In this document: one piece after another, positions 18,094 through 48,302 of the stretch
Layout: each line of letters starts with the position of its first letter
Numbering within the stretch: position 1 is the first letter of the stretch
From: Deltaproteobacteria bacterium
Lineage (GTDB): Bacteria > Desulfobacterota > Binatia > UBA9968
Direction: 5' to 3'
DNA length: 64,000 nt
Assembly (NCBI GenBank): GCA_016874755.1
Contig: VGTH01000010.1
Span: 1 to 64,000 of the forward strand
The notes under the pieces: model-generated
Told to the model about the DNA's origin: nothing
Databases searched by the model: none
The model's input: only the letters and a program-made list of their open reading frames with translations
Made by a program: the position numbers and the translations under genes

Positions 18094-19266
18094 ATGCTAA
18101 CTGCTGAAGAAAATGATTTCATGACTAGAGTGGGGCCTGGCACGCCCGCGGGTGAGTTGCTGCGCCGCTACTGGCATCCCATTTCGATTGCGGCGGATTT
18201 GACGCCGGAAAATCCGCGCAAGTTTGTAAGGATACTTGGTGAAGATCTAGTTCTATTTGTCACACCGAAGGGCGAGGCCGGGCTGCTGCACGACCGCTGC
18301 GCTCATCGCGGTGTATCGCTTTCCTACGGCCGTGTCGAAGAACGCGGCATCTCCTGCGCTTATCATGGATGGCTCTACGATACTCAGGGCAACTGTCTTG
18401 AGACACCCGCGGAGCCGGCGGACAGCAAATTTTGCCTGACCGTAAAACAAAAAGCCTATCCGGTGAAAAAGCACTGTGGGCTCTACTGGGCGTATATGGG
18501 ACCGCTGCCGGCGCCGGAGATCCCCAAATGGGATGTTTGGGCGCGCACCGACGGCTGGCACTGGCTGCGCGCGCTGCCGCAGCTCGACTGCAACTGGCTG
18601 CAGGCGATGGAGAACTCCGTCGACACGGCGCATCTGCATATCCTCCATCAAGAATTGGTGACCGACGGGTTCAAAGTCACCAGTACAACGCGGGGGACCA
18701 TCGACAATTTAGTGAAATATGAGATGGACGAGTTCGAGCACGGCATCATCAAGCGGCGCGTCTTTCGCGACGGCAAGGTTGAAGAACATCCGCTGTTGTT
18801 TCCCACTTGGCTGCGGCAAGCCAATCGCACGCAGATCCGTGTGCCCATCGACGACACGCACACCTACGTTGTCTACGTGCACTTTGTCCCGAATTCCGCT
18901 GAGCCTCCTCCTGCCAACGGCGAAGTGCCGGTGAACTACCGTAAACCGTTTAAGAACCCGCCGGAGCGAAGCCATCCGTTTGCACGCCATCGGCTGGACG
19001 AAGTTGATGCGCAGGACTTCATGGCGTGGGAAACTCAAGGGCCGATTCACGACCGTACCAACGAGCGACTTACTGGGTCGGACCGCGGCATCGTCCTGTA
19101 CCGCGAGATTCTCACGCGCGAGATCAAGAAAGTGCAGCAGGGGCTCGATCCGATAAACGTCTTTCGCGATCCGAACTTGCCGATCATCGATACTCACTTG
19201 GAAGAGTCGGTGAAGGTCGGTAGAGCGGGAGGCTTCGCGCATATCTTGCCACCGAAGGCGTCGTAA
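18094..19266 (+). CDS. Rieske non-heme iron oxygenase alpha subunit (phthalate-4,5-dioxygenase-like)
   Basis: A 390-residue oxygenase component. The Rieske [2Fe-2S] ligands are CAHRG and, 16 residues on, CAYHGW. The catalytic domain has the mononuclear iron motif ENSVDTAHLHILH. Such enzymes hydroxylate or O/N-demethylate aromatic carboxylates using electrons from a reductase, which is not encoded here. AAGGGGAG precedes ATG 18094; the in-frame GTG at 18064 is less likely. It lies directly behind an SBP gene, an order repeated for all five Rieske genes in the window. Confidence 0.9.
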   Translation: MLTAEENDFMTRVGPGTPAGELLRRYWHPISIAADLTPENPRKFVRILGEDLVLFVTPKGEAGLLHDRCAHRGVSLSYGRVEERGISCAYHGWLYDTQGNCLETPAEPADSKFCLTVKQKAYPVKKHCGLYWAYMGPLPAPEIPKWDVWARTDGWHWLRALPQLDCNWLQAMENSVDTAHLHILHQELVTDGFKVTSTTRGTIDNLVKYEMDEFEHGIIKRRVFRDGKVEEHPLLFPTWLRQANRTQIRVPIDDTHTYVVYVHFVPNSAEPPPANGEVPVNYRKPFKNPPERSHPFARHRLDEVDAQDFMAWETQGPIHDRTNERLTGSDRGIVLYREILTREIKKVQQGLDPINVFRDPNLPIIDTHLEESVKVGRAGGFAHILPPKAS

Positions 19267-25459: not shown

Positions 25460-26125
25460 GTGGTACGAACGACCGGTAGAGTAGGTTCATGTCTCGTAAT
25501 TCTCTTTCTTGGTCTTGCGGTTCAATCTTTTGCAGCGCAGGCGAAGCCAGCTTGGCAGCTGGACTGGGAAAAGACTCTCGAAGCTGCAAAGAAGGAAGGC
25601 CAAGTTTCGATCTACATCAGCGGCTATGATTCGATCCTCCCTGACTTCGAGAAGGAATATCCTGAGATCAAAGTAAACGCCGTCACCGGGCGGGGCAATG
25701 TGCTCGGGCCGCGTTTATTGGCCGAGCGGCGCGCTGAGAAGTTTCTTGCCGACGTGTCTAGCACAGGAACTAATCCCAACTACCAGCAATTCTATCTCGC
25801 CAAGGCGCTCGACCCGGTCAAACCGGCGCTGATCTTACCGGAGGTGCTCGACCCATCGAAGTGGTATTTGAAAAAACACCAGTACTCCGATCCGGAAAAT
25901 CAGTACGTCTTCAACTACGTCGGTTCGGCGACCTACGGCGCGATTCACTACAACACAAAACTCGTCGACGCGAAGGAGGTTAAATCCTACTGGGATCTTT
26001 TGAATCCCAAATGGAAGGGCAAGATCACCATGCGCGACATGCGTGAAGCCGGCCGGGCGCCGGGAACATGCGATTCTTTTATTACCATGCGGATCTCGGT
26101 CCTACATTTATCAAAAGATTGTTAA
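25460..26125 (+). pseudogene. Family-1 substrate-binding protein, 5' part of a frameshifted gene
   Basis: The first 200 residues are a normal SBP: signal VGSCLVILFLGLAVQSFAAQ, YISGYDSILPDFEKEY, ERRAEKFLADV, YNTKLVDAKE. After MRDMREAGRAPGT the frame turns to unrelated residues and stops at 26125. The correct continuation resumes in another frame at 26068. Comparison with the tandem copy at 24197 places the break at about 26060-26068, where CCGGGAACATG looks one G short of CCG GGG AAC ATG. Translation would give a truncated, probably non-functional receptor. The start is a GTG with no clear ribosome-binding site. Confidence 0.75.
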
Positions 26126-26574
26126 GCGAAATGGATGTGACGCTGTTCCGCGATTTTCGCCAGGGGCCGGATTGGTTGGCGACCGGCAAGTATTCGATTT
26201 GTTTTTTTTGCGACGCCGACACGCTGAAGCAGCAAGGTCTGCCGGTGGAGCCGTTTGGTCCGCGTTCCTTCAAAGAGGGCGGCGGCTTGGTGCAGCAGTT
26301 TGGCACCGTAGCGTTAGTCAACCGCGCGCCGCATCCCAATGCGGCCAAAGTGTTTATCAATTGGCTGCTCTCGCGCGCCGGCCAGATGGCTTTACAGAAG
26401 CGCACCAGCACCGCCGAGAGTCCGGCGGATTCGCTGCGCATCGATATTCCAAAAGATGAGGTGCCAATACAGGGTCGGCGCTTGGACGGCATCAAGTATC
26501 TCGACACCGGCAAGCCGGAGTGGATCGAGATGAAGCCGATACTCGACGTGGTAAATGAGGCGCTGAGAAAATAA
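26068..26574 (+). pseudogene. Family-1 substrate-binding protein, 3' part of a frameshifted gene
   Basis: The 168-residue remainder of the interrupted SBP: RFFYYHADLGPTFIKRL, then CFFC in KYSICFFCDAD, KQQGLPVEPF, APHPNAAKVFINWLLSR and SLRIDIPKDE. It lacks the N-terminal lobe and signal peptide, so it cannot act alone. The frame is otherwise undamaged, which fits either a recent mutation or a one-base error in the assembled sequence. Confidence 0.75.
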
Positions 26575-38626: not shown

Positions 38627-39793
38627 ATGCTCACCAAAGAAGAAAATGAAATGCTCACCAGCGTCGGCAAAGGCACACCGTGCGGCGAGCTCTTGCGGCG
38701 CTACTGGATGCCGATCGCCGCTGCCGGCGAATTGACGGAAGCAAAGCCGATCAAAACGGCGCGTATTCTTGGCGAAGACTTAGTCGTCTACCGCGACAAG
38801 ACAGGTCACTACGGTGTGGTCGGCGAATCTTGCCCGCACCGCAAGGCGTCGTTGGCGTTTGGCCGCGTCGACGAAGAGGGAATTCGCTGCCCCTACCACG
38901 GCTGGAAGTTCGATTGTACCGGCAAGTGCATCGAACAACCGGCGGAGCCGGAGAGCGGCGGTTTCAAAGACAGGATCAAACATGTGGCCTATCCGGCCGA
39001 GCGGCTTGGAGGATTGATCTGGACCTACATGGGACCGCTGCCTGCGCCGCTGTTGCCGCGCTTTGATGTCCTTACCTGGGAGCATGGCAGGCGTTGGGTT
39101 GAGAAGCATGAGCTGTACAACTGCAATTGGCTGCAGCCGATGGAAAATTCGGTCGACCCGTCGCATCTTTTTTGGTTGCACGGTGAGACCGCTCACCTAG
39201 TGGGTGTCGTCGGTAAATACGAGGAAGAGCATAATTTCATTCCCTTCGAATTCGGCATCATCAAACAGCGGCGCACGCCGGGTCGAAAGCCAGGCGAAGG
39301 CATGCAGCTCGATCAACATCCGCTGGTCTTCCCGATCACACTGCGTCATGTTTTTCGCGCCCTGAAGACGACCGGATTTTTGATGCAAAACATGCAGATC
39401 CGCGTGCCAGTGGACGATGCGCATACCCAAGTGTTCGTGGTCTATTTTACACCGAACGATACCGACAGATCGCCGGCGGACGGCGACACACCGTGGGAAT
39501 ATTTTCCGATCCGCAACGAAAAAGGCGAGTACCGCTTGGAGCATGTGCTGGTGCAAGATGCGATGGCGTGGGAAACCCAAGGGGCGCCGACGGACCGTTC
39601 GCAGGAACACCTCGGGGTTGGTGACGAAGGAATTATTCTCTTACGAAAACTTCTGCGCGAGCAGATCGAGATCGTGAAAAGAGGCGGCGAGCCGCTGGGC
39701 ATCGTGCGCGATCCGAGCAAGAACAAATTGATCGAGTTCGACGTGATCAACGAGCGCGTCGGACTGTTCGGCAAAGCGCAGAAAGTGGCGTAG
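38627..39793 (+). CDS. Rieske non-heme iron oxygenase alpha subunit
   Basis: A 388-residue oxygenase component with Rieske ligands in CPHRKAS and CPYHGWKFD and mononuclear iron ligands in ENSVDPSHLFWLH. It starts with MLTKEENEMLTSVGKGTPCGELLRRYW, the same N-terminal pattern as the other four Rieske proteins here, so all belong to one phthalate-dioxygenase-like branch. AAGGAGCAACC precedes the ATG. It is followed by two bicupin genes and a dihydroxyphthalate-decarboxylase-like gene, a plausible oxidation then cleavage/decarboxylation order. Confidence 0.9.
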   Translation: MLTKEENEMLTSVGKGTPCGELLRRYWMPIAAAGELTEAKPIKTARILGEDLVVYRDKTGHYGVVGESCPHRKASLAFGRVDEEGIRCPYHGWKFDCTGKCIEQPAEPESGGFKDRIKHVAYPAERLGGLIWTYMGPLPAPLLPRFDVLTWEHGRRWVEKHELYNCNWLQPMENSVDPSHLFWLHGETAHLVGVVGKYEEEHNFIPFEFGIIKQRRTPGRKPGEGMQLDQHPLVFPITLRHVFRALKTTGFLMQNMQIRVPVDDAHTQVFVVYFTPNDTDRSPADGDTPWEYFPIRNEKGEYRLEHVLVQDAMAWETQGAPTDRSQEHLGVGDEGIILLRKLLREQIEIVKRGGEPLGIVRDPSKNKLIEFDVINERVGLFGKAQKVA

Positions 39794-39826
39794 GCTTTCA
39801 CGCTATTCTTCGCAGTCGGTTCCGGT

Positions 39827-39930
39827 TCCCCTCCCCCTTGCGGGGAAAGGCTAGGATAGGGCGTGCGCTGCCCGCGATAGCGATTTTCACTGGCACCCCT
39901 ACCTCTGTCCTTCCCCATCAAGGGGAAGGA
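39827..39930. repeat. GGGGAAAGGCTAGGATAGGG inverted repeat
   Basis: CCCCTCCCCCTTGCGGGGAA and AGGCTAGGATAGGG face CACCCCTACCTCTGTCC and TTCCCCATCAAGGGGAAGG. It fills most of the 200-base gap between the Rieske and bicupin genes. Confidence 0.65.
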
Positions 39931-39995
39931 TGTAAGAACCCGGGAGGACAATGCATTATGAAATTTCATTCGCAGATTTGTAGAAGGAGATTCTA

Positions 39996-41099
39996 ATGGC
40001 AGAAATGGCTCAACCGGCAAGCGACTTAAAACCCGAGCGGCTCGATACTTACAAAGTCTGGCAAGCGCAGCAAAAAATTCCCTGTGTGCGCGGCTTTTTC
40101 GTCAAGGACGTCAACGAACTACCCGTGGAGTACTGGGATTTGAAAGGTGTGCCTTGCTCCTTCGTCATACTCGACGGCACCGGCGGTATCAATGACGGCT
40201 ACGTCTGTGAAATTCCTGCAGGCGGCAAGACCAAACCGCAGAAGCATATGTACGAAGAGATGGTCTACGTGTCCAAAGGCTACGGCGCGACCACGGTCTG
40301 GCAGCGCGACGGCAAGAAGAAGCACACCTTCGAATGGGGGCCGGGTAGCATGTTCGCCATCCCGATCAACGCCGACTATCAGCACTTCAACGCGAGCGGC
40401 AGCGAATCGGCGCGTTATTTCGCGGTCACCAACTCCTGCTTCGTGATGAATCTGTTTCACAACGTCGATTACATTTTTAACAGCGACTACGTTTTCAATG
40501 ATCGCTTCGATCCCCACACCGAGGGCTACTTCAACGGCGAGGGAACGGTCACCGGGCGGTTTTTCATGACGACCAACTTCGTGCCCGATACGCACACGCT
40601 CAAGCTGACCAACTATGACGAGCGCGGCAAGGGTAGCACCAATATGAAATTTGACTTGGCGCGCAACACCATGGGCGCCCATATTTCGGAGTTCCCAGTT
40701 GGCACTTACAAGAAGGGCCATCGCCATGGTCCCGGTGCCCACGTCATCATTCTCTCCGGGCAAGGTTATTCGGTTCTGTGGAAAGAAGGCGAAGGGATGC
40801 AGCGGGTCGATTGGGGCCGCGGCAGCGTGGTCGTGCCGCCGGACCAGTGGTTCCACCAACATTTCAACTCCGGCGCCCAGCCGTCGCGCTACCTGGCGCT
40901 GCGCTGGAATAACTGGCGCTACCGCTTCATGCGCTCGCAGGACGGCGAAGGCGGGACGTTTACGAGCCTCAAGCTCGGCGGCAACCAGATCGAGTTTGAA
41001 GACGAAGATCCGCAGATCCACAAAGACTTCGAGACGGCGATGAAGCTCGCCAGCGCAAAGTGCAACATGCCATATCACCCGGGGTGTACGCAGAAATAG
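39996..41099 (+). CDS. Bicupin protein, tandem copy 1
   Basis: A 367-residue double-cupin protein. Cupin 1 (about residues 60-150) has KHMYEEMVYVSKG and a later YQHFNASG; cupin 2 (about 240-310) has KKGHRHGPGAHV and HQHFNSG. Both thus keep candidate metal-binding His/Glu sets, unlike the paralogue at 22911. The family resembles gentisate 1,2-dioxygenase and related ring-cleavage bicupins. AGAAGGAG precedes the ATG. The copy at 41364 is highly similar along its whole length, and both are followed by the same GCGGCTATTTCGGTTTCGAG segment. Confidence 0.82.
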   Translation: MAEMAQPASDLKPERLDTYKVWQAQQKIPCVRGFFVKDVNELPVEYWDLKGVPCSFVILDGTGGINDGYVCEIPAGGKTKPQKHMYEEMVYVSKGYGATTVWQRDGKKKHTFEWGPGSMFAIPINADYQHFNASGSESARYFAVTNSCFVMNLFHNVDYIFNSDYVFNDRFDPHTEGYFNGEGTVTGRFFMTTNFVPDTHTLKLTNYDERGKGSTNMKFDLARNTMGAHISEFPVGTYKKGHRHGPGAHVIILSGQGYSVLWKEGEGMQRVDWGRGSVVVPPDQWFHQHFNSGAQPSRYLALRWNNWRYRFMRSQDGEGGTFTSLKLGGNQIEFEDEDPQIHKDFETAMKLASAKCNMPYHPGCTQK

Positions 41100-41363: not shown

Positions 41364-42461
41364 ATGGCCGAAGCGACTTCGCCCGTGGCGATCAAGTACG
41401 AGCGCATTGATACCTATAAAGAATGGCAGCAGAAACAAAAAATTCCACTTGTCTCGGGATTCTTCGTTGAGGATTTGAATAAGGTCCCGGTGGAAAACTG
41501 GGATCTGAAAGGTGTGCCCTGTTCATTCGTGGTGCTTGATGGCACGGGAGGGGTGAACGACGGTTACGTCTGCGAGATTCCGCCCAAGAGCAAGACCAAG
41601 GAGCAGAAACATCTCTACGAAGAGATGATCTACGTCACCAAGGGCTACGGCGCGACGACGGTCTGGCAGAAAAACGGCAAGAAGCACACCTTCGAGTGGG
41701 GGCCGGGGAGTTTGTTTGCGGTGCCGATCAACGCTTACTACCAGCACTTCAATGCGAGCGGCACGGAGGCGGCGCGCTATTTCGCCGTGACCAATTCTTG
41801 CTTCATGATCAATCTGTTTCACAACGTCGATTTTGTTTTTAACAACGATTATCCGTTTCTCGACCGCTTCGATCCGGCGCAGGACGACTATTTCAGCGGC
41901 AACGGCGAAGTCACTGGGCGATTTTTTATGACGACCAATTTTGTCCCGGACACCCACACCATCGGCTTGGCCGACTACAGCGAGCGCGGCAAGGGCAGCA
42001 CCAATATGAAGTTCAATCTCGCCGGACAAACCATGTGCGCGCATATTTCGGAATTCCCGGTGGGCACTTACAAGAAAGGTCACAAGCATGGGCCGGGGGC
42101 GCATGTGATCATTCTTACGGGGCAGGGTTATTCGGTGCTTTGGCCTGAGGGGAAAGAGATGCAGCGCGTCGATTGGAAACCCGGCAGTGTGGTGGTGCCG
42201 CCGGACCAGTGGTTCCACCAGCATTTCAATTCCGGCGCCGCGCCGGCGCGTTATTTAGCGCTGCGCTGGGGCAGTTGGAAGTTCAAATTTATGCGCATGC
42301 AGGACGGCGAAGGCGGTACTTACACGAGCATCAAGCAGGGCGGCGGACAGATCGAGTTCGAAGACGAGGATCCGCGCATCCACAAAGAGTTCGAAGAAGC
42401 GATGGTCAAAGCCGGCGCGCGCTGCAACATGCCGTATCATCCGGGGTGCACGCAGAAATAA
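41364..42461 (+). CDS. Bicupin protein, tandem copy 2
   Basis: A 365-residue paralogue of the preceding gene. Cupin 1 has KHLYEEMIYVTKG and YQHFNASG; cupin 2 has KKGHKHGPGAHV (HRH becomes HKH, still two His) and HQHFNSG. The C-terminus CNMPYHPGCTQK is identical in both copies, so their conserved Cys pair may matter. GAGGGAG precedes the ATG. The two copies are separated by a terminator and a repeat, so they are probably transcribed separately despite arising by duplication. Confidence 0.82.
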   Translation: MAEATSPVAIKYERIDTYKEWQQKQKIPLVSGFFVEDLNKVPVENWDLKGVPCSFVVLDGTGGVNDGYVCEIPPKSKTKEQKHLYEEMIYVTKGYGATTVWQKNGKKHTFEWGPGSLFAVPINAYYQHFNASGTEAARYFAVTNSCFMINLFHNVDFVFNNDYPFLDRFDPAQDDYFSGNGEVTGRFFMTTNFVPDTHTIGLADYSERGKGSTNMKFNLAGQTMCAHISEFPVGTYKKGHKHGPGAHVIILTGQGYSVLWPEGKEMQRVDWKPGSVVVPPDQWFHQHFNSGAAPARYLALRWGSWKFKFMRMQDGEGGTYTSIKQGGGQIEFEDEDPRIHKEFEEAMVKAGARCNMPYHPGCTQK

Positions 42462-42479
42462 CCGCGCGGCGCGGCTATT

Positions 42480-42560
42480 TCGGTTTCGAGTTTCGGGTTT
42501 CGAGCTCCGGACTCGGTTGCGCATCGCCGACTCGAAACCCGAAACCTTGAACTCGAAACA
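42480..42560. repeat. GGTTTCGAGTTTCGGGTTTCG inverted repeat
   Basis: TTCGGTTTCGAGTTTCGGG and TTTCGAGCTCCGGACTCGG face GACTCGAAACCCGAAACC and GAACTCGAAAC. The left arm is also present after the first bicupin gene (41117-41140). Confidence 0.6.
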
Positions 42561-42579
42561 GCGACTAGAGGAACCCTTT

Positions 42580-43593
42580 ATGGCCAAACTAACTCTCAGT
42601 TTCGTTTCCGCCTACAACGAACGCGTTGAGCCGTTGATGAACGGCACGATCCAGGCCGAGGGCGTCGAGCTGATTCCGACGTACTCTGACCCTTCGGAGA
42701 CGTTTTGGCGCCAGCTCAAGTTCAAGGAGTTTGATGTCTCGGAGTTGTCGCTGTCGTCGTATTTGATCGCGCGATCGCGCGGCATGGATTTTATCGCCAT
42801 CCCGGTCTTCCCGGCGCGGCGCTTCTTTCATGCGGAGCTTTCCTATCATGGCGACTCGGGCATCAAGCAGGCGAGCGACATTGCCGGCAGGCGTATCGGC
42901 GTTGGCGAGTACCAGCAGACGGCGTCGCTCTGGGTGCGCGGGACCTTGGAGCATGACTTCGGCGTATCGCAGTACAAAGTCGACTGGTGGATGGAGCGGA
43001 CCGAAGAGCTGAGTCACGGAGGCGCGACGGGATTTACTCCGCCGAAGGGAATCTCGTTTAACCGGATTCCGCCGGACAAGAGCATTGCGTCGATGCTGGT
43101 CAATAACGAGATCGACGTCGCGTCGGTGACGCGCGCGTTTTCGCGCGAGTCGAATATCATCGACCGCTCGACCCACATTCGCGCGCAGGGCGGCGACTGG
43201 AGCAAGGTGAAGCCGCTATTCCCTGACCGCATGGCCGAGGCCGCTCGCTTCGTCAAACAGCACGGCTTTGCGCCGGCCAATCATGCCTACGCGATCCGTG
43301 GCGACGTCGCGCGCAAGTATCCCTGGCTGGCGTTCAATCTTTACAAAGCGTTTTTCGCGGCGAAGGAAGCTTGGCGCGACCGTTTCGTTGAGAGCTTGCC
43401 GTCGGGATTGTTTTTCGGCCGAGAATACGTTGCCAAGACCCGGGAGATTCTCGGCGACGATCCCTATCCCTACGGCATCAAGGCGAATCGGCCGATGCTG
43501 GACACAATTATCAATTATTCCCACGAGCAGGGACTGACGCCGCAGAAGGCGAAGATTGAAGAGTTGTTTGCGCCGGCGACGTTGGATTTGTAG
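42580..43593 (+). CDS. 4,5-dihydroxyphthalate decarboxylase-like protein (Pht5 family)
   Basis: A 337-residue protein starting MAKLTLSFVSAYNERVEPLM, with GTIQAEGVEL, FKEFDVSELSLSSYL and a C-terminal GLTPQKAKIEELF. This matches the 4,5-dihydroxyphthalate decarboxylase family, an enzyme built on the periplasmic-binding fold but cytoplasmic; no signal peptide is present. It would remove a carboxylate from a dihydroxylated aromatic acid in the phthalate 4,5-pathway. ATG 42580 follows AGAGG. Some family members are annotated merely as binding proteins, so the reaction remains inferred. Confidence 0.78.
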   Translation: MAKLTLSFVSAYNERVEPLMNGTIQAEGVELIPTYSDPSETFWRQLKFKEFDVSELSLSSYLIARSRGMDFIAIPVFPARRFFHAELSYHGDSGIKQASDIAGRRIGVGEYQQTASLWVRGTLEHDFGVSQYKVDWWMERTEELSHGGATGFTPPKGISFNRIPPDKSIASMLVNNEIDVASVTRAFSRESNIIDRSTHIRAQGGDWSKVKPLFPDRMAEAARFVKQHGFAPANHAYAIRGDVARKYPWLAFNLYKAFFAAKEAWRDRFVESLPSGLFFGREYVAKTREILGDDPYPYGIKANRPMLDTIINYSHEQGLTPQKAKIEELFAPATLDL

Positions 43594-43614
43594 GTCTCTC
43601 ACGGAGGATCGGTG

Positions 43615-44913
43615 ATGATCCGCCAGAAAATCTTGCCTTACCTTAGGGCCATGAAAAAATCGTGCGCATCTCCGCCCGCGCCCAACAAACCTCCCCTAAC
43701 CCCTCTTTTCCAAAGAGGGGAATCACCATGCGGAACAGTGGCATCTCAAATATTCATGACGAATATTCCGCGTCCCCCTTTGAAAAAGGGGGGCAACAGG
43801 GGGATTTTATTTGCTTGTTTCATTGCGCCGCTGGCGATTTTGCTGACGATGTTGGTTGCGGCTCAAGCACGTGGCGCAGAAACAGCGGCAACATCGGACA
43901 GCGAATGGGAGCGCACGGTCAAAGCCGCCGAGCAGGAAGGGCAGGTCAACGTTTACAAGATCGCCAGCGACTCGGAGTGGCAGGCATTTCAGAAAAAATA
44001 CCCCAAGATCAAAGTAAACATTACCCATGCCACGGCGGCGCAGCACCTGCAGCGTATTATGGCCGAGCGGCGCGCGGGCAAATATTTGCCCGACGTGATT
44101 CGTCTCGGCGGCGGCACCTCGACTTCTCTCTTCAAAGCCAAGGCGCTCGATCCCATCGGCCCGGCCATGCTGTTGCCGGAAGTCAGAGATGCCACCAAAT
44201 GGTTTGAGGGACGGCATCATTACAACGACATCGAGAACCAATACGTTTTCATCTATGCGGCCTTTCCGCTGCATTTGCTCGGTTACAATCCAAAAATAGT
44301 CGATGGGAATAGCCTGAAAGGCTACGCCGACCTGCTCGACCCCAAGTGGAAAGGCAAGATCACACTGAAAGATCCGCGCGATCCGGGCGGAGCCAGTCCG
44401 CTGCTATTTCTCTACTACAATCCGCAGCTCGGAGCGGACTTCATCAAAAAACTTTTTACTGTCTCGGGGCTGACGCTGATCCGCAACGAAGGGCAGCAAC
44501 TGGACTGGGTGGCGTCGGGAAAGTATCCCATCGCGATCACCGCCAAACCAGAGCAACTGGAGAGCGCCAAGAGCAAAGGACTGCCGGTGGAAGTGCTCGA
44601 CGCCCATATAATGAAAAAAGACGGCGTCGGCTTGGAAGCGGGCGGCACGATGGTCGCGTTGGCGAACAACGCGCCGCATCCGAACGCCGCCAAGGTGCTG
44701 CTAAATTGGTTCTTGTCGCGCGAAGGCCAAATGGCGGTGCAGAGACCGAGCGGCAACGAGCCTGGCTACAATTCGCTGCGCGAAGACATTGCGAAGGATT
44801 TTTTGCCGAGCTGGGCGCAGCGGCAGAAGGGCACGAACTACGTTCGTCTGTGGGGCCCGGCGGTGTGGGATCGCACGGCGATCACGGATTTGGTGAATGA
44901 GATGGCGAAGTGA
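43615..44913 (+). CDS. Family-1 ABC substrate-binding protein with repeat-encoded insertion before the signal core
   Basis: GGAGGA at 43603-43608 is ideally placed for ATG 43615. From there the frame runs through MIRQKILPYLRAMKK, then about 50 residues encoded by a palindromic repeat (PPLTPLFQRGE ... PPLKKGGNRG), and only then the hydrophobic core ACFIAPLAILLTMLVAA ending ARGAE. Total 432 residues, about 60 longer than relatives. An internal ATG at 43757 is an alternative start. The CxxC position reads PIAITAKPEQ. The mature SBP is otherwise complete. A Rieske gene follows downstream. Confidence 0.82.
   Translation: MIRQKILPYLRAMKKSCASPPAPNKPPLTPLFQRGESPCGTVASQIFMTNIPRPPLKKGGNRGILFACFIAPLAILLTMLVAAQARGAETAATSDSEWERTVKAAEQEGQVNVYKIASDSEWQAFQKKYPKIKVNITHATAAQHLQRIMAERRAGKYLPDVIRLGGGTSTSLFKAKALDPIGPAMLLPEVRDATKWFEGRHHYNDIENQYVFIYAAFPLHLLGYNPKIVDGNSLKGYADLLDPKWKGKITLKDPRDPGGASPLLFLYYNPQLGADFIKKLFTVSGLTLIRNEGQQLDWVASGKYPIAITAKPEQLESAKSKGLPVEVLDAHIMKKDGVGLEAGGTMVALANNAPHPNAAKVLLNWFLSREGQMAVQRPSGNEPGYNSLREDIAKDFLPSWAQRQKGTNYVRLWGPAVWDRTAITDLVNEMAK
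43684..43808. repeat. CCCCTCTTTTCCAAAGAGGGG inverted repeat inside a gene start
   Basis: CCTCCCCTAACCCCTCTTTT with CCAAAGAGGGG faces CCCCCTTTGAAAAAGGGGGG with CAACAGGGGGATTTT. The whole block is in frame with the SBP that starts at 43615. Confidence 0.75.
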
Positions 44914-44917
44914 TTCG

Positions 44918-45060
44918 GAATTTTCTCGCGCAGAGTACGCAGAGATCGCAAAGTTCGGAAAAGAAATTTCACCACGAAGGACACGAAGATCACGAAGGGA
45001 AGCCCAAGAAGAAAATTTCCGAACTTCGTGTCCTTCGTCATGATCTTCGTGGTGAGTAAT
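44918..45060. repeat. CACGAAGGACACGAAG inverted repeat with GCGCAGAGTACGCAGAG element
   Basis: CTCGCGCAGAGTACGCAGAG, then TCACCACGAAGGACACGAAG facing CTTCGTGTCCTTCGTCATGA and TCTTCGTGGTGAG. It fills the gap between the SBP and the Rieske gene; the same double structure is at 48303-48450 between the next SBP and Rieske pair. Confidence 0.75.
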
Positions 45061-45083
45061 TCTTATTCGATGGAGACAAGCCT

Positions 45084-46295
45084 ATGATTAGACCAAGCGA
45101 TCTTACATGGGATGAAGTTGTCCGGGTCGGACCGGGGACCCTCGGCGGCAATTATTTGCGCGCGTTTTGGTGGCCGGTGGCGTTGGCGGACGAAGTCAAA
45201 GACATTCCGGTGCCGGTGAAAATTCTTGGCGAGGAACTGGTTTTGTTCCGCGACCTGGGCGGCCAGCTCAATTTGCTTGGCGTGTATTGCGCGCATCGGC
45301 GCGCGTCGTTGGAGTACGGGCTCATTCAAGAAAACGGCATTCGCTGCGCCTATCACGGCTGGTGCTACGACCGGCGCGGGGCGATTGTCGATCGGCCGGC
45401 GGAGCCGATCAAGACCGCGCCGAATATTCACCATCCCTGGTATCCGGCGCGCGAGTTGGGCGGCTTTGTTTTTGCCTATCTGGGTAAAGACAAAGAGAGT
45501 CCGCCGCCGCTGCCGCGCTACGATGTGCTGGTGCAAGATGGTCACCGTGTGTGTGAGCGCGGCGATCCGGATGGCGGCAAGGCGTATAATTGCAATTGGC
45601 TGCAGGGCGTCGAGAATACTACGGATACGACGCACCTGACCTATTTGCACGGTATTTACAAAAACTGCCCGTCGTTCAAGCCGGTGGAAGGCGAGTACGG
45701 CGTCAAACTCTATATTCTCGAACCGCGCGCGCGGCCGGGACATGTGGCGATCCGCAAGCGCTGCACGGTGCTGCCGACGATCAATCGCAAATCGCGCGAG
45801 CTGTATAAGAACGATCCGAACAAAATGCCGGTGACGCTGCAGCAGGCAATCTGGGTGATTCCCATCGACGATACGCATTGCGAAGAGATGCGCATGACGG
45901 TGTATCCCGAGAAACCGCCGGACAAGCGCTACCACGGTGAGTACATCGACAAAACCAAGCAGCGTGAACGCAAACCCTACGACCGGCGCGCTTATGGCGA
46001 GGTCCGCGGCATCGTGCCTTTGGAGGACAAAGCGATGGTCGAAAGCCAGGGCGCCATCGTCGATCGGACATTGGAACACCCCGGCTTCGGCGACCGGGCG
46101 ATTCTTGTGCTGCGTAAGATGTTGCGCGATGGCATCGCTGCCGTTGCCAACGGCGAGATGCCCAAAGGCGTGTTGCGAGAAGATATGTCGCTGGTCGATC
46201 TCGACATCGGCATCGAGCAGTATCCGATCGACAACGTTCCCGTAGATCGCCAAGAGCTGCTCGCTGAACTGCAGAAGCAGGCGGAGCAAATATGA
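45084..46295 (+). CDS. Rieske non-heme iron oxygenase alpha subunit
   Basis: A 403-residue oxygenase component: Rieske ligands CAHRRAS and CAYHGWCYD, iron site ENTTDTTHLTYLH. Its N-terminus (MIRPSDLTWDEVVRVGPGTLGGNYLRAFW) departs from the other four copies, and the iron-site helix has TTDTTH instead of SVDPSH-like sequence, so it is the most divergent Rieske in the set. GGAGACAAGCC precedes the ATG. Its stop overlaps the next gene (ATGA), coupling it to a beta-hydroxyacid dehydrogenase-like protein. Confidence 0.9.
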   Translation: MIRPSDLTWDEVVRVGPGTLGGNYLRAFWWPVALADEVKDIPVPVKILGEELVLFRDLGGQLNLLGVYCAHRRASLEYGLIQENGIRCAYHGWCYDRRGAIVDRPAEPIKTAPNIHHPWYPARELGGFVFAYLGKDKESPPPLPRYDVLVQDGHRVCERGDPDGGKAYNCNWLQGVENTTDTTHLTYLHGIYKNCPSFKPVEGEYGVKLYILEPRARPGHVAIRKRCTVLPTINRKSRELYKNDPNKMPVTLQQAIWVIPIDDTHCEEMRMTVYPEKPPDKRYHGEYIDKTKQRERKPYDRRAYGEVRGIVPLEDKAMVESQGAIVDRTLEHPGFGDRAILVLRKMLRDGIAAVANGEMPKGVLREDMSLVDLDIGIEQYPIDNVPVDRQELLAELQKQAEQI

Positions 46296-47164
46296 CGCGG
46301 TTGCATTCGGCGGCGGCGTTGGAGCGTTTAGGTTTTATCGGGCTTGGCAATATGGGCGGCGCGATTGCGCTCCGGCTCCTGCGCGCTGGTTACCCGTTGA
46401 CCGTGCTCGATTTGGAAGATGCGAGGATGGCGCCGCTTATCAAAGCCGGCGCGGCCAGCGCGGCTACCCCGGCGAAGGTTGCCGAGCGTTCGACCATTGT
46501 CATCGCTTCGCTGCAACCGGAGTCGGTGGAAGAGGTGGCCTGCGGCAGAAACGGGCTGGTGGCGGCGCGGCAGGCGGATTTTTGTTTCGTCGACTTGAGC
46601 AGCACGTCGCAGGAGCTGGCGATCAAAGTCTCCGGCGCGCTGCGCGAGCTCGGCATCGAGATGCTCGATGCGCCGGTGAGCGGCGCCGACATCGGCGCGA
46701 CCAACGGCAACCTGACGCTCTTTGTCGGCGGCAGCTATCCGGCGTATCAACGCTGTCTGCCGGTCTTGCAGCAGATCGGCCAGATGGTGACCTACCTCGG
46801 CCCCAACGGCAATGGCCAGGTGGGCAAGAAAATCAACCAGATGATGCAGGCGATGTCCGAGCTGGCGATCTACGAAGGCATGCTGCTGGCGCAGAAAAAG
46901 GGGCTGCCACTGCAGATGTTCGCGCGGGCGGCGTCGGCCGGCTGCGCGCAGACCTGGCGCTTGGACGAGCTGGTCGACGGCGTGTTCAATCACGGCGAAA
47001 GCAAACACCGGTTTCGGCTGCGCCCTGGCCGCACGGGCAATGCCCTCAAGATGGCCGAGCAGCTCGGCATCAAGCTGCCAGGCACGGAAGCGGCGCATCA
47101 GGTGTTTTTACGGCATAACTGGGAGATAGTGATTGACTTCGATGAGGACAAAGTTCCGGAGTAG
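46292..47164 (+). CDS. NAD(P)-dependent beta-hydroxyacid dehydrogenase (3-hydroxyisobutyrate dehydrogenase family)
   Basis: A 290-residue reductase with LGFIGLGNMGGAIALRLL (nucleotide binding), DAPVSGADIGATNGNLT (substrate-binding motif) and VGKKINQM with the catalytic Lys near residue 179. All family landmarks are intact, more canonical than the copy at 27811. The start overlaps the Rieske stop by four bases, so both proteins are likely made together, perhaps acting in sequence on the same product. An SBP follows seven bases after its stop. Confidence 0.85.
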   Translation: MTRLHSAAALERLGFIGLGNMGGAIALRLLRAGYPLTVLDLEDARMAPLIKAGAASAATPAKVAERSTIVIASLQPESVEEVACGRNGLVAARQADFCFVDLSSTSQELAIKVSGALRELGIEMLDAPVSGADIGATNGNLTLFVGGSYPAYQRCLPVLQQIGQMVTYLGPNGNGQVGKKINQMMQAMSELAIYEGMLLAQKKGLPLQMFARAASAGCAQTWRLDELVDGVFNHGESKHRFRLRPGRTGNALKMAEQLGIKLPGTEAAHQVFLRHNWEIVIDFDEDKVPE

Positions 47165-47171
47165 GGGATCT

Positions 47172-48302
47172 ATGCGCCTAGCCGGATTCATAGCTGTGTT
47201 GGTGGCGCTGGTGCTTGGGTTCTCGCCGAGCCGAGTTGCGGCAGCAGAAAGCGCGGGCTGGGAAGCCGAGTGGAACCGCGTTCTCAAGGCTGCCGAGCAG
47301 GAAGGCCAGGTGAACCTCTACAGCCTGTCAGAGATCGGCGAGGCGATCGCCAACTCGGGGTTTGCCAAGAAATTCCCCAAAATCAAAATCAACGTCGTCG
47401 GCGCGCGCGGCGGCGAGCATATTTCGCGCATCATGGCCGAGCGGCGCGCTGGCAAGTTTCTCGTCGACCTCGGCAACCTCGGCAACACGTCGCCCCATAC
47501 GCTCTATCAAAGCAAAGTCCTCGACCCGATCGCATCGGCCTATATTCTTCCCGAGGTCAAAGATGAATCGAAGTGGTGGCAGGGCAAGCAGCAGTTCATC
47601 GATCCCGACGGGAAATATATTCTCGTTTACGTCGGCGCGCCGCTGTTTTTGGTCGGTTACAATACCAAGCTTGTCGAGCCGAAAAGCTTCAAGTCGTATT
47701 GGGATTTGCTCGAGCCCAAATGGAAGGGCAAGATCGTTGCCTTCGATCCCAAGGCCGGCGGCTTCGCGGCGACGCGGGATCGGTTTTTCTATCACAACGC
47801 GGAATTGGGGCCGCAATTCTTGCGGCGTTTGTTTAGCGAGACCAGCTTGACGTTATACGCGCGCTACCCGCAGGGCGAAGATTGGCTGGCGGCGGGAAAG
47901 TACTCGCTTTGCTTGTGCCGCCATCAATCGATCAGCGAGGCCAAGGCCCAAGGCTTGCCGGTGGATTTGATGGAGCCGACGCAATTCAAAGAAGGGGTCG
48001 GCATCGAGAGCCGGGCTAAAACGTTGGTGCTGATGAACCAAGCGCCGCATCCGAACGCGGCGAAGGTTTTTCTCAATTGGTTTCTATCGCGCGAGGGACA
48101 GAGCGATTTTCAGAAAACCGCGGCGAAGTTCATCGACGCCGGCGCCGAAGCGTCGCTGCGCCAAGATATTTCCAAGGATGATATTCCGCCGCGCAATCGG
48201 TTGAACCCGGGCGTGAAATATCTGCCGCAGTGGAACCCGGATTATTTCGATATGAAACCGATCAGTAAAGTGATCAGCGAAGCGCTGGCCGAGAAGAAAT
48301 AG
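47172..48302 (+). CDS. Family-1 ABC substrate-binding protein
   Basis: A 376-residue SBP. ATG 47172 follows AGGGGAT and begins the signal MRLAGFIAVLVALVLGFSPS ending VAAAE. The CxxC position has a shortened CLC (YSLCLCRHQS). SEIGEAIANSGFAKKFPKI and GNTSPHTLYQSKVLDPI resemble the SBP at 55282 (GEVGFVSEFEKKFPRI, GNTSPYALYQ), so these two form a sub-branch, and both precede a Rieske gene. The tail is RQDISKDD. Confidence 0.86.
   Translation: MRLAGFIAVLVALVLGFSPSRVAAAESAGWEAEWNRVLKAAEQEGQVNLYSLSEIGEAIANSGFAKKFPKIKINVVGARGGEHISRIMAERRAGKFLVDLGNLGNTSPHTLYQSKVLDPIASAYILPEVKDESKWWQGKQQFIDPDGKYILVYVGAPLFLVGYNTKLVEPKSFKSYWDLLEPKWKGKIVAFDPKAGGFAATRDRFFYHNAELGPQFLRRLFSETSLTLYARYPQGEDWLAAGKYSLCLCRHQSISEAKAQGLPVDLMEPTQFKEGVGIESRAKTLVLMNQAPHPNAAKVFLNWFLSREGQSDFQKTAAKFIDAGAEASLRQDISKDDIPPRNRLNPGVKYLPQWNPDYFDMKPISKVISEALAEKK

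Follow-up and report, generated by a model that had tools for sequence, protein, structure and literature searches.

The RPEs of Rickettsia (Ogata 2000, 2002) are described in the available part of a review (PMC10969869) as palindromic elements of ~150 bp that lie in frame in many genes, and proteins carrying an N-terminal RPE-1 are said, in the available part of another article (PMC3733652), to be expressed. According to the same portion of the latter (Di Nocera 2013), GTAG/CGTC REPs are 20–40 bp palindromes occurring singly or as head-to-head or tail-to-tail dimers; they are mostly intergenic, some lie within ORFs, where dimers or groups encode 20 to 30 residues, and many of the N-terminal cases may be extragenic. 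Bacterial MITEs are short multi-copy elements with inverted-repeat ends, for which in-frame fusions have been reported (PMC10969869, available part). In-frame repeats at protein N termini are often dismissed as misannotated starts; at the locus described here, the homologues that lack the repeat indicate that the original start lay upstream of it.

In the window (the whole 64,000-nucleotide stretch of DNA that was analysed), an element of ~160 bp, at about 43651–43812, separates the n-region of a solute-binding protein (SBP) from its hydrophobic signal core while keeping the frame open, adding ~54 residues in which Pro, Gly, Lys and Arg are abundant (Table 1). In the reading that we consider probable, a REP-like inverted pair within this element was inserted at the junction of n-region and hydrophobic core and is read through from ATG 43615. 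The putative insertion, known from one assembly, resembles the RPEs by description, being a palindromic element of similar length placed in frame in a gene.

Table 1. Features of the SBP gene and of the element inserted near its 5′ end (window coordinates)
Feature	Position	Strand	Basis
Shine–Dalgarno-like GGAGGA	43603..43608	+	Sequence; GGAGG precedes the orthologous ATG in G001, GAGG in G004
Start codon with n-region, considered ancestral, MIRQKILPYLRA	43615..43650	+	ATG-ATC common to G001, G004, G002:C301 and G015:C200
Insertion-carrying SBP ORF	43615..44913	+	PF13416 (E 5.6e-14), PF01547, PF13343, PF13531
Left conserved arm, family consensus AAAAATCATGAGCCTCTCC...; in-frame ATG 43651	43651..43686	+	Alignment of 11 same-genome copies
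Repeat unit 1; palindrome CCCCTCTTT-TCC-AAAGAGGGG at 43700–43720	43687..43722	+	nhmmer E 2.8e-8
Spacer; in-frame GTG 43738 and ATG 43756	43723..43772	+	~30 nt longer than in most aligned copies
Repeat unit 2; palindrome CCCCCTTT-GAA-AAAGGGGG at 43774–43792; in-frame TTG 43780	43773..43806	-	nhmmer E 2.5e-7
Approximate right edge, uncertain by ~15 nt	43807..43812	+	Copies L009, L012, L015 and L016
Hydrophobic core and putative signal-peptide end (approximate)	43813..43875	+	Translation; alignment with homologues

The element had been described as a single inverted repeat of about 125 bases. That architecture is ruled out by the sequence, the nhmmer units and the alignment of copies, all of which show two separate palindromes, each part of a ~35-nt unit, in opposite orientation. 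Symmetry of the element ends (GTGAAAAAATC...GATTTTTCAC) is visible by eye in copies L009 and L012 and is weaker elsewhere, and no clear target-site duplication was seen; compared with MITEs, terminal inverted repeats are thus discernible by eye in some copies only, and no target-site duplication is established. No Rfam family reached its gathering threshold within 42500–45100, no tRNA was found in 42000–46000, and a search for plasmid relatives of the element gave no match.

The reading frame is open from 43594, directly after the stop codon of the upstream gene, to 44913, repeat included. The preliminary description was right about this open frame and too low in its estimate of about 40 encoded residues. 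Counted from ATG 43615 the ORF has 432 residues; an alternative in-frame GTG at 43612 gives 433, in which numbering the SBP domain (PF13416) spans residues 123–378. The open frame is unsurprising by itself. Across 16 dimer sites of the same family, the mean number of open frames was 2.1 of 6 for the ‘-+’ and 2.5 of 6 for the ‘+-’ arrangement, with a range of 1 to 5 and a commonest value of 2 (9 of the 16). The window element has two of six frames open, compared with a mean of 1.2 in dinucleotide shuffles, 167 of 500 of which reached 2. The anchor-to-anchor length is 152 nt in the window and 122, 121, 121 and 123 nt in four other copies; as these distances differ among copies, the in-frame fit of the element is not built in.

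Homologues of the window gene were sought in 25 genomes of the family, including its own; five genomes contained a match at E ≤ 1e-110, giving six loci with the window, and two fragments lacking an N terminus (G007:C129 and G015:C400) were left out of the comparison. Three of the six loci are free of the repeat. Two of these, G002:C301 (69% identity) and G015:C200 (68%), begin at the ATG-ATC shared with the window gene, reading MIDKKFPIQAISLL (more fully MIDKKFPIQAISLLC) and MIGKTILIQALFPL (more fully MIGKTILIQALFPLA), respectively, with purine-rich sites upstream. The third, G002:C221, begins MMRLRSLAAIGLF, is less alike and does not have the ATG-ATC start. The start regions, as read from sequence, thus agree between the window gene and two of its repeat-free homologues. 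In the window gene, the GGAGGA/ATG start noted in the preliminary description is present, with a spacing of 6 nt, and 12 codons lie between this ATG and the element. The window gene has kept both the start found in its homologues and the Shine–Dalgarno sequence of that start; the simplest interpretation, and the most likely one, is therefore that translation begins at 43615 and continues through the repeat.

Translation could instead begin within the element, at ATG 43756, GTG 43738 or another codon, the upstream ATG being a relic and the minus-strand unit supplying a new n-region (MTNIPRPPLKKGGNRG). The element offers four in-frame start codons (Table 1), and such codons also occur inside repeats at C47, G004:C113, G001:C73 and C5; at C11 an ATG, and at C56 a GTG, directly follows the repeat. 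The peptide beginning at 43756 has an ordinary signal-peptide shape, and the caution that many N-terminal REPs may precede the true start (Di Nocera 2013, PMC3733652, available part) is relevant here. We nevertheless regard a displaced start as rather unlikely. Neither 43756 nor 43738 is preceded by a Shine–Dalgarno-like sequence, in contrast to 43615 with its GGAGGA, and three genes with the same arrangement (C8, C1 and G001:C31) offer no start codon from the beginning of the repeat up to the core.

The two orthologues that share the upstream gene with the window, the only loci at which this gene order was seen, carry a repeat of their own. G004:C50 (83% identity) reads MICRKI-PPCPPFSKGG-LFALLFWLLMLV, with a single unit of ~30 bp; its only later start before the core is a TTG 1 nt behind a G-run, which is too near to that run and speaks against a displaced start. 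G001:C31 reads MIRQKI-PPSPLFSKGG-IRDAIASLAILL, with one unit directly after the n-region and no start codon in the unit or between unit and core. By hand count, 95 residues precede the conserved ‘SEWERT’ in the window protein (start at 43615), compared with 42 in G004 and about 33 in a repeat-free homologue, which fits the earlier estimate that the protein is about 60 residues longer than its paralogues. In the upstream gene, dS is 0.38 between G001 and G004 and 0.90–0.92 between each of them and the window. As these two genomes are closer to each other than to the window, the window element would have arrived either independently, very close to the site used in G001 and G004, or afterwards, next to the remnant of an older unit.

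Comparison of the window gene with G004 over 337 codons gave a dN/dS of 0.12 at a dS of 0.85, indicating purifying selection. Together with the starts of the repeat-free homologues, this value supports the earlier proposal that the repeat entered a live gene without breaking it. The gene might alternatively be an early pseudogene, the insertion having inactivated export of this one paralogue. At E ≤ 0.001 the SBP query gives 101 matches across its own genome, the window’s contig accounting for 16, and loss of one among about 100 related genes could be tolerated; the G001 orthologue (L045) is indeed damaged, with an in-frame TAG near its start, and chimeric, its 5′ part matching the window SBP and the remainder, fused from a neighbouring paralogue, resembling the paralogue at window 47133–48302. 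A recent loss of function would not yet register in dN/dS. Set against the full-length frame, the low dN/dS at this level of divergence and the good Shine–Dalgarno sequence, inactivation appears very improbable, and we retain the reading of an intact gene translated through the repeat.

The element belongs to a dispersed family. Scanning 2,032,215 sampled bases (2.03 Mb) of the same genome with a unit profile built from 27 seeds identified 26 sites with 42 non-overlapping units in total, and the same 2.03 Mb reversed yielded none. The sites comprise 12 ‘-+’ and 4 ‘+-’ pairs and 9 ‘-’ and 1 ‘+’ single units. Scoring 40 of 86 BLAST candidates gave at least 42 matches to the window sequence in its own genome, the window included. 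Of the 32 units in the first 1.24 Mb, 30 lie outside crudely called genes; the two window units are wrongly among those 30, because the crude caller placed the start of the window gene at 43849, within the signal core, and its calls were not used for starts. Related repeats occur in at least 11 of 34 genomes, the window’s own included and all of these genomes belonging to the same family (at most 24 candidates scored per genome), and the long left arm was matched in the window’s own genome only, among the matches listed.

With imperfect palindromes of 20–40 bp, dispersed and mainly intergenic as singles or inverted dimers, the family is REP/BIME-like in the broad sense, and resembles the intragenic REPs of the available part of PMC3733652 in that some copies are coding. 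It differs from GTAG/CGTC REPs, as the 27-seed alignment, judged by eye, shows no constant tag of that kind beside the stem, which is preceded by AAATC(C/T)CCCCTNN. It differs also from RAYT-mobilised REPs. The genome contains three PF01797 (Y1_Tnp) genes; the closest repeat sites are 12.0 kb and 3.7 kb away, and on the contig of the third Y1_Tnp gene none was found in the portion sampled. A RAYT as mobilising neighbour was rejected on this ground, there being no repeat within 3.7 kb of any of the three genes.

The same arrangement was found in other proteins. In the 26-site census, a repeat lies in frame before the core in a trypsin-like protein (C8, PF13365), a transglycosylase (C1, PF00912) and a DUF1850-like protein (C5, 26.6 bits against a cut-off of 27). 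The first two contain no ATG, GTG or TTG from the repeat onwards as far as the core; C5 has GTG and TTG in frame within it; in all three the Shine–Dalgarno sequence of the upstream start is weak or absent. No relatives of the C1 transglycosylase were found in 15 other genomes at E ≤ 1e-40. Repeat-encoded peptides were also searched in ten genomes, and frames were read where matches adjoin SBP matches; SBP cases outside the census were therefore chosen for adjoining known SBP matches. Among the matches listed, they comprise G000:C47 (G000 being the window’s own genome), which reads MRSMLHGVLSV-[pair]-IAVVCLIIVSALC and has an in-frame TTG inside the repeat; G004:C113, with a repeat before the hydrophobic segment and likewise an in-frame TTG; and G001:C73, in which GGGAGG-N5-ATG stands upstream of a repeat that contains TTG, ATG and GTG in frame. 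Given these internal starts, translation from upstream is not proved by C47, G004:C113, G001:C73 and C5 taken alone. The G001 homologue of the C47 protein (87% identity over 149 residues) is repeat-free by eye. At C23, a pair lies in frame inside a 396-residue protein without a Pfam match; 25 of its residues at that point are missing from a distant G008 homologue, whose identity to it is 45% in one half and 34% in the other. For three apparently intact genes (the window gene, G000:C47 and the C23 gene), comparison with insertion-free homologues thus indicates in-frame insertion. In related bacteria, too, repeats sit at the equivalent position of other, presumably exported proteins, which suggests that this part of the export signal is unusually tolerant of insertions.

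Several candidates were set aside. The C56 SBP was not counted, its repeat being followed by a GTG that is a usable start, and the C11 SBP is not a clear case, an ATG following its repeat directly, a few nucleotides behind a G-run. At C31, C6 and C3 of the census a long open frame crosses the repeat and no start lies upstream of it, so these were classed as upstream repeats. Open frames with upstream starts at C4:78271, C23:22456 and C2:86440 fail the computed arrangement test described below. Long open frames also occur at other listed matches, for example G001:C25, G000:C17, G000:C28, G015:C110, G012:C214, G005:C127 and G004:C31. At L036 (G000:C11, about 18517–18612) the G-run of the repeat stands at the Shine–Dalgarno position and may supply the ribosome-binding site of the SBP gene.

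The recurrence was assessed with a test requiring an open frame across the site, an upstream in-frame start, a called gene and a hydrophobic 10-residue stretch within 12 codons after the site with no start codon before it; this rule is not a signal-peptide predictor, and the test was devised, with a single choice of thresholds, once the pattern was known. Five of the 26 sites passed: C1, C5, C8, C10 (the window) and C11, the last an ambiguous pass that results only from the ATG lying two codons inside its hydrophobic window. Random places passed at 2.8% genome-wide (0.72 expected, P = 7e-4) and at 2.2% near gene starts (0.57 expected, P = 2e-4). Without the window, 4 of 25 sites passed (P = 0.005 and 0.002, respectively), and without the window and C11, 3 of 25 (P = 0.03 and 0.017), the random places keeping such ambiguous passes. 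Stretches that precede an N-terminal hydrophobic segment make up 0.6% of the sample. Five of the six in-frame cases precede such a segment and 20 of the 26 sites are not in-frame cases; in both respects, and in occurring in an unrelated organism, the family is unlike the RPEs. In-frame REPs and RPEs are already known. What appears to be new is their recurrence at the n-region/hydrophobic-core junction of signal peptides, a bias for which no report was found in the open-licence literature searched.

Insertions into genes mostly kill the gene and are lost. A REP-like repeat landing where n-region and hydrophobic core meet in the signal peptide of an exported SBP may be spared this fate: translation would start at ATG 43615 and read through, lengthening the n-region by ~54 residues, and the signal peptide, extra residues included, would be cut off after export. 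If the lengthened signal peptide is removed, the mature protein would be unchanged. Insertions would survive at this junction for two reasons: added residues do little harm there, as they do at few other coding positions, and the repeat, which often lacks stop codons, encodes basic Pro/Gly peptides (PPLKKGG, PLFQRGE, PFSKGG) that would suit an n-region.

The repeats might alternatively be kept for a function, an early-message hairpin or a longer n-region tuning translation or export. Their recurrence before hydrophobic segments of unrelated proteins would fit such a role, as would the predicted transcript fold of −54.8 kcal/mol over 162 nt, a value that has no shuffle control. Against such a role, the reading frame of the repeat varies from gene to gene, no common function is apparent among the genes, and the copies in G001 and G004 have different sequences. 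Survivorship accounts for the bias without any function, and we consider a functional role improbable. Under survivorship, which we prefer, the junction in signal peptides and N-terminal membrane anchors could be a general landing and survival site for the family: the repeat, encoding basic, Pro-, Gly- and Lys-containing peptides in several frames, would work within the n-region and later be cut away, so that export signals are re-written and mature proteins left untouched. This generalization is tentative, and we put it forward as a possibility on which we would not yet rely. If confirmed, it would mean that tolerance of mobile repeats can be measured in signal-peptide n-regions, that nature has itself been testing the limit of n-region length, and that odd, long signal peptides, possibly miscalled by start-site predictors, can arise in this way.

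Other repeats and an altered gene were observed in the window. A different inverted repeat (TTCACCACGAAGGACACGAAG ... CTTCGTGTCCTTCGT...GTGGTGA) lies at 44938–45058, between the SBP gene and a Rieske oxygenase gene, and a similar sequence is present downstream of the G001 gene (L045). On the minus strand, an ORF at 39442–40020 with YPSLSPQGGGE-type residues hints at another short repeat type. The SBP paralogue at 25496–26562 is apparently split in a frameshift-like manner into two overlapping frames, covering query residues 11–197 and 194–366.
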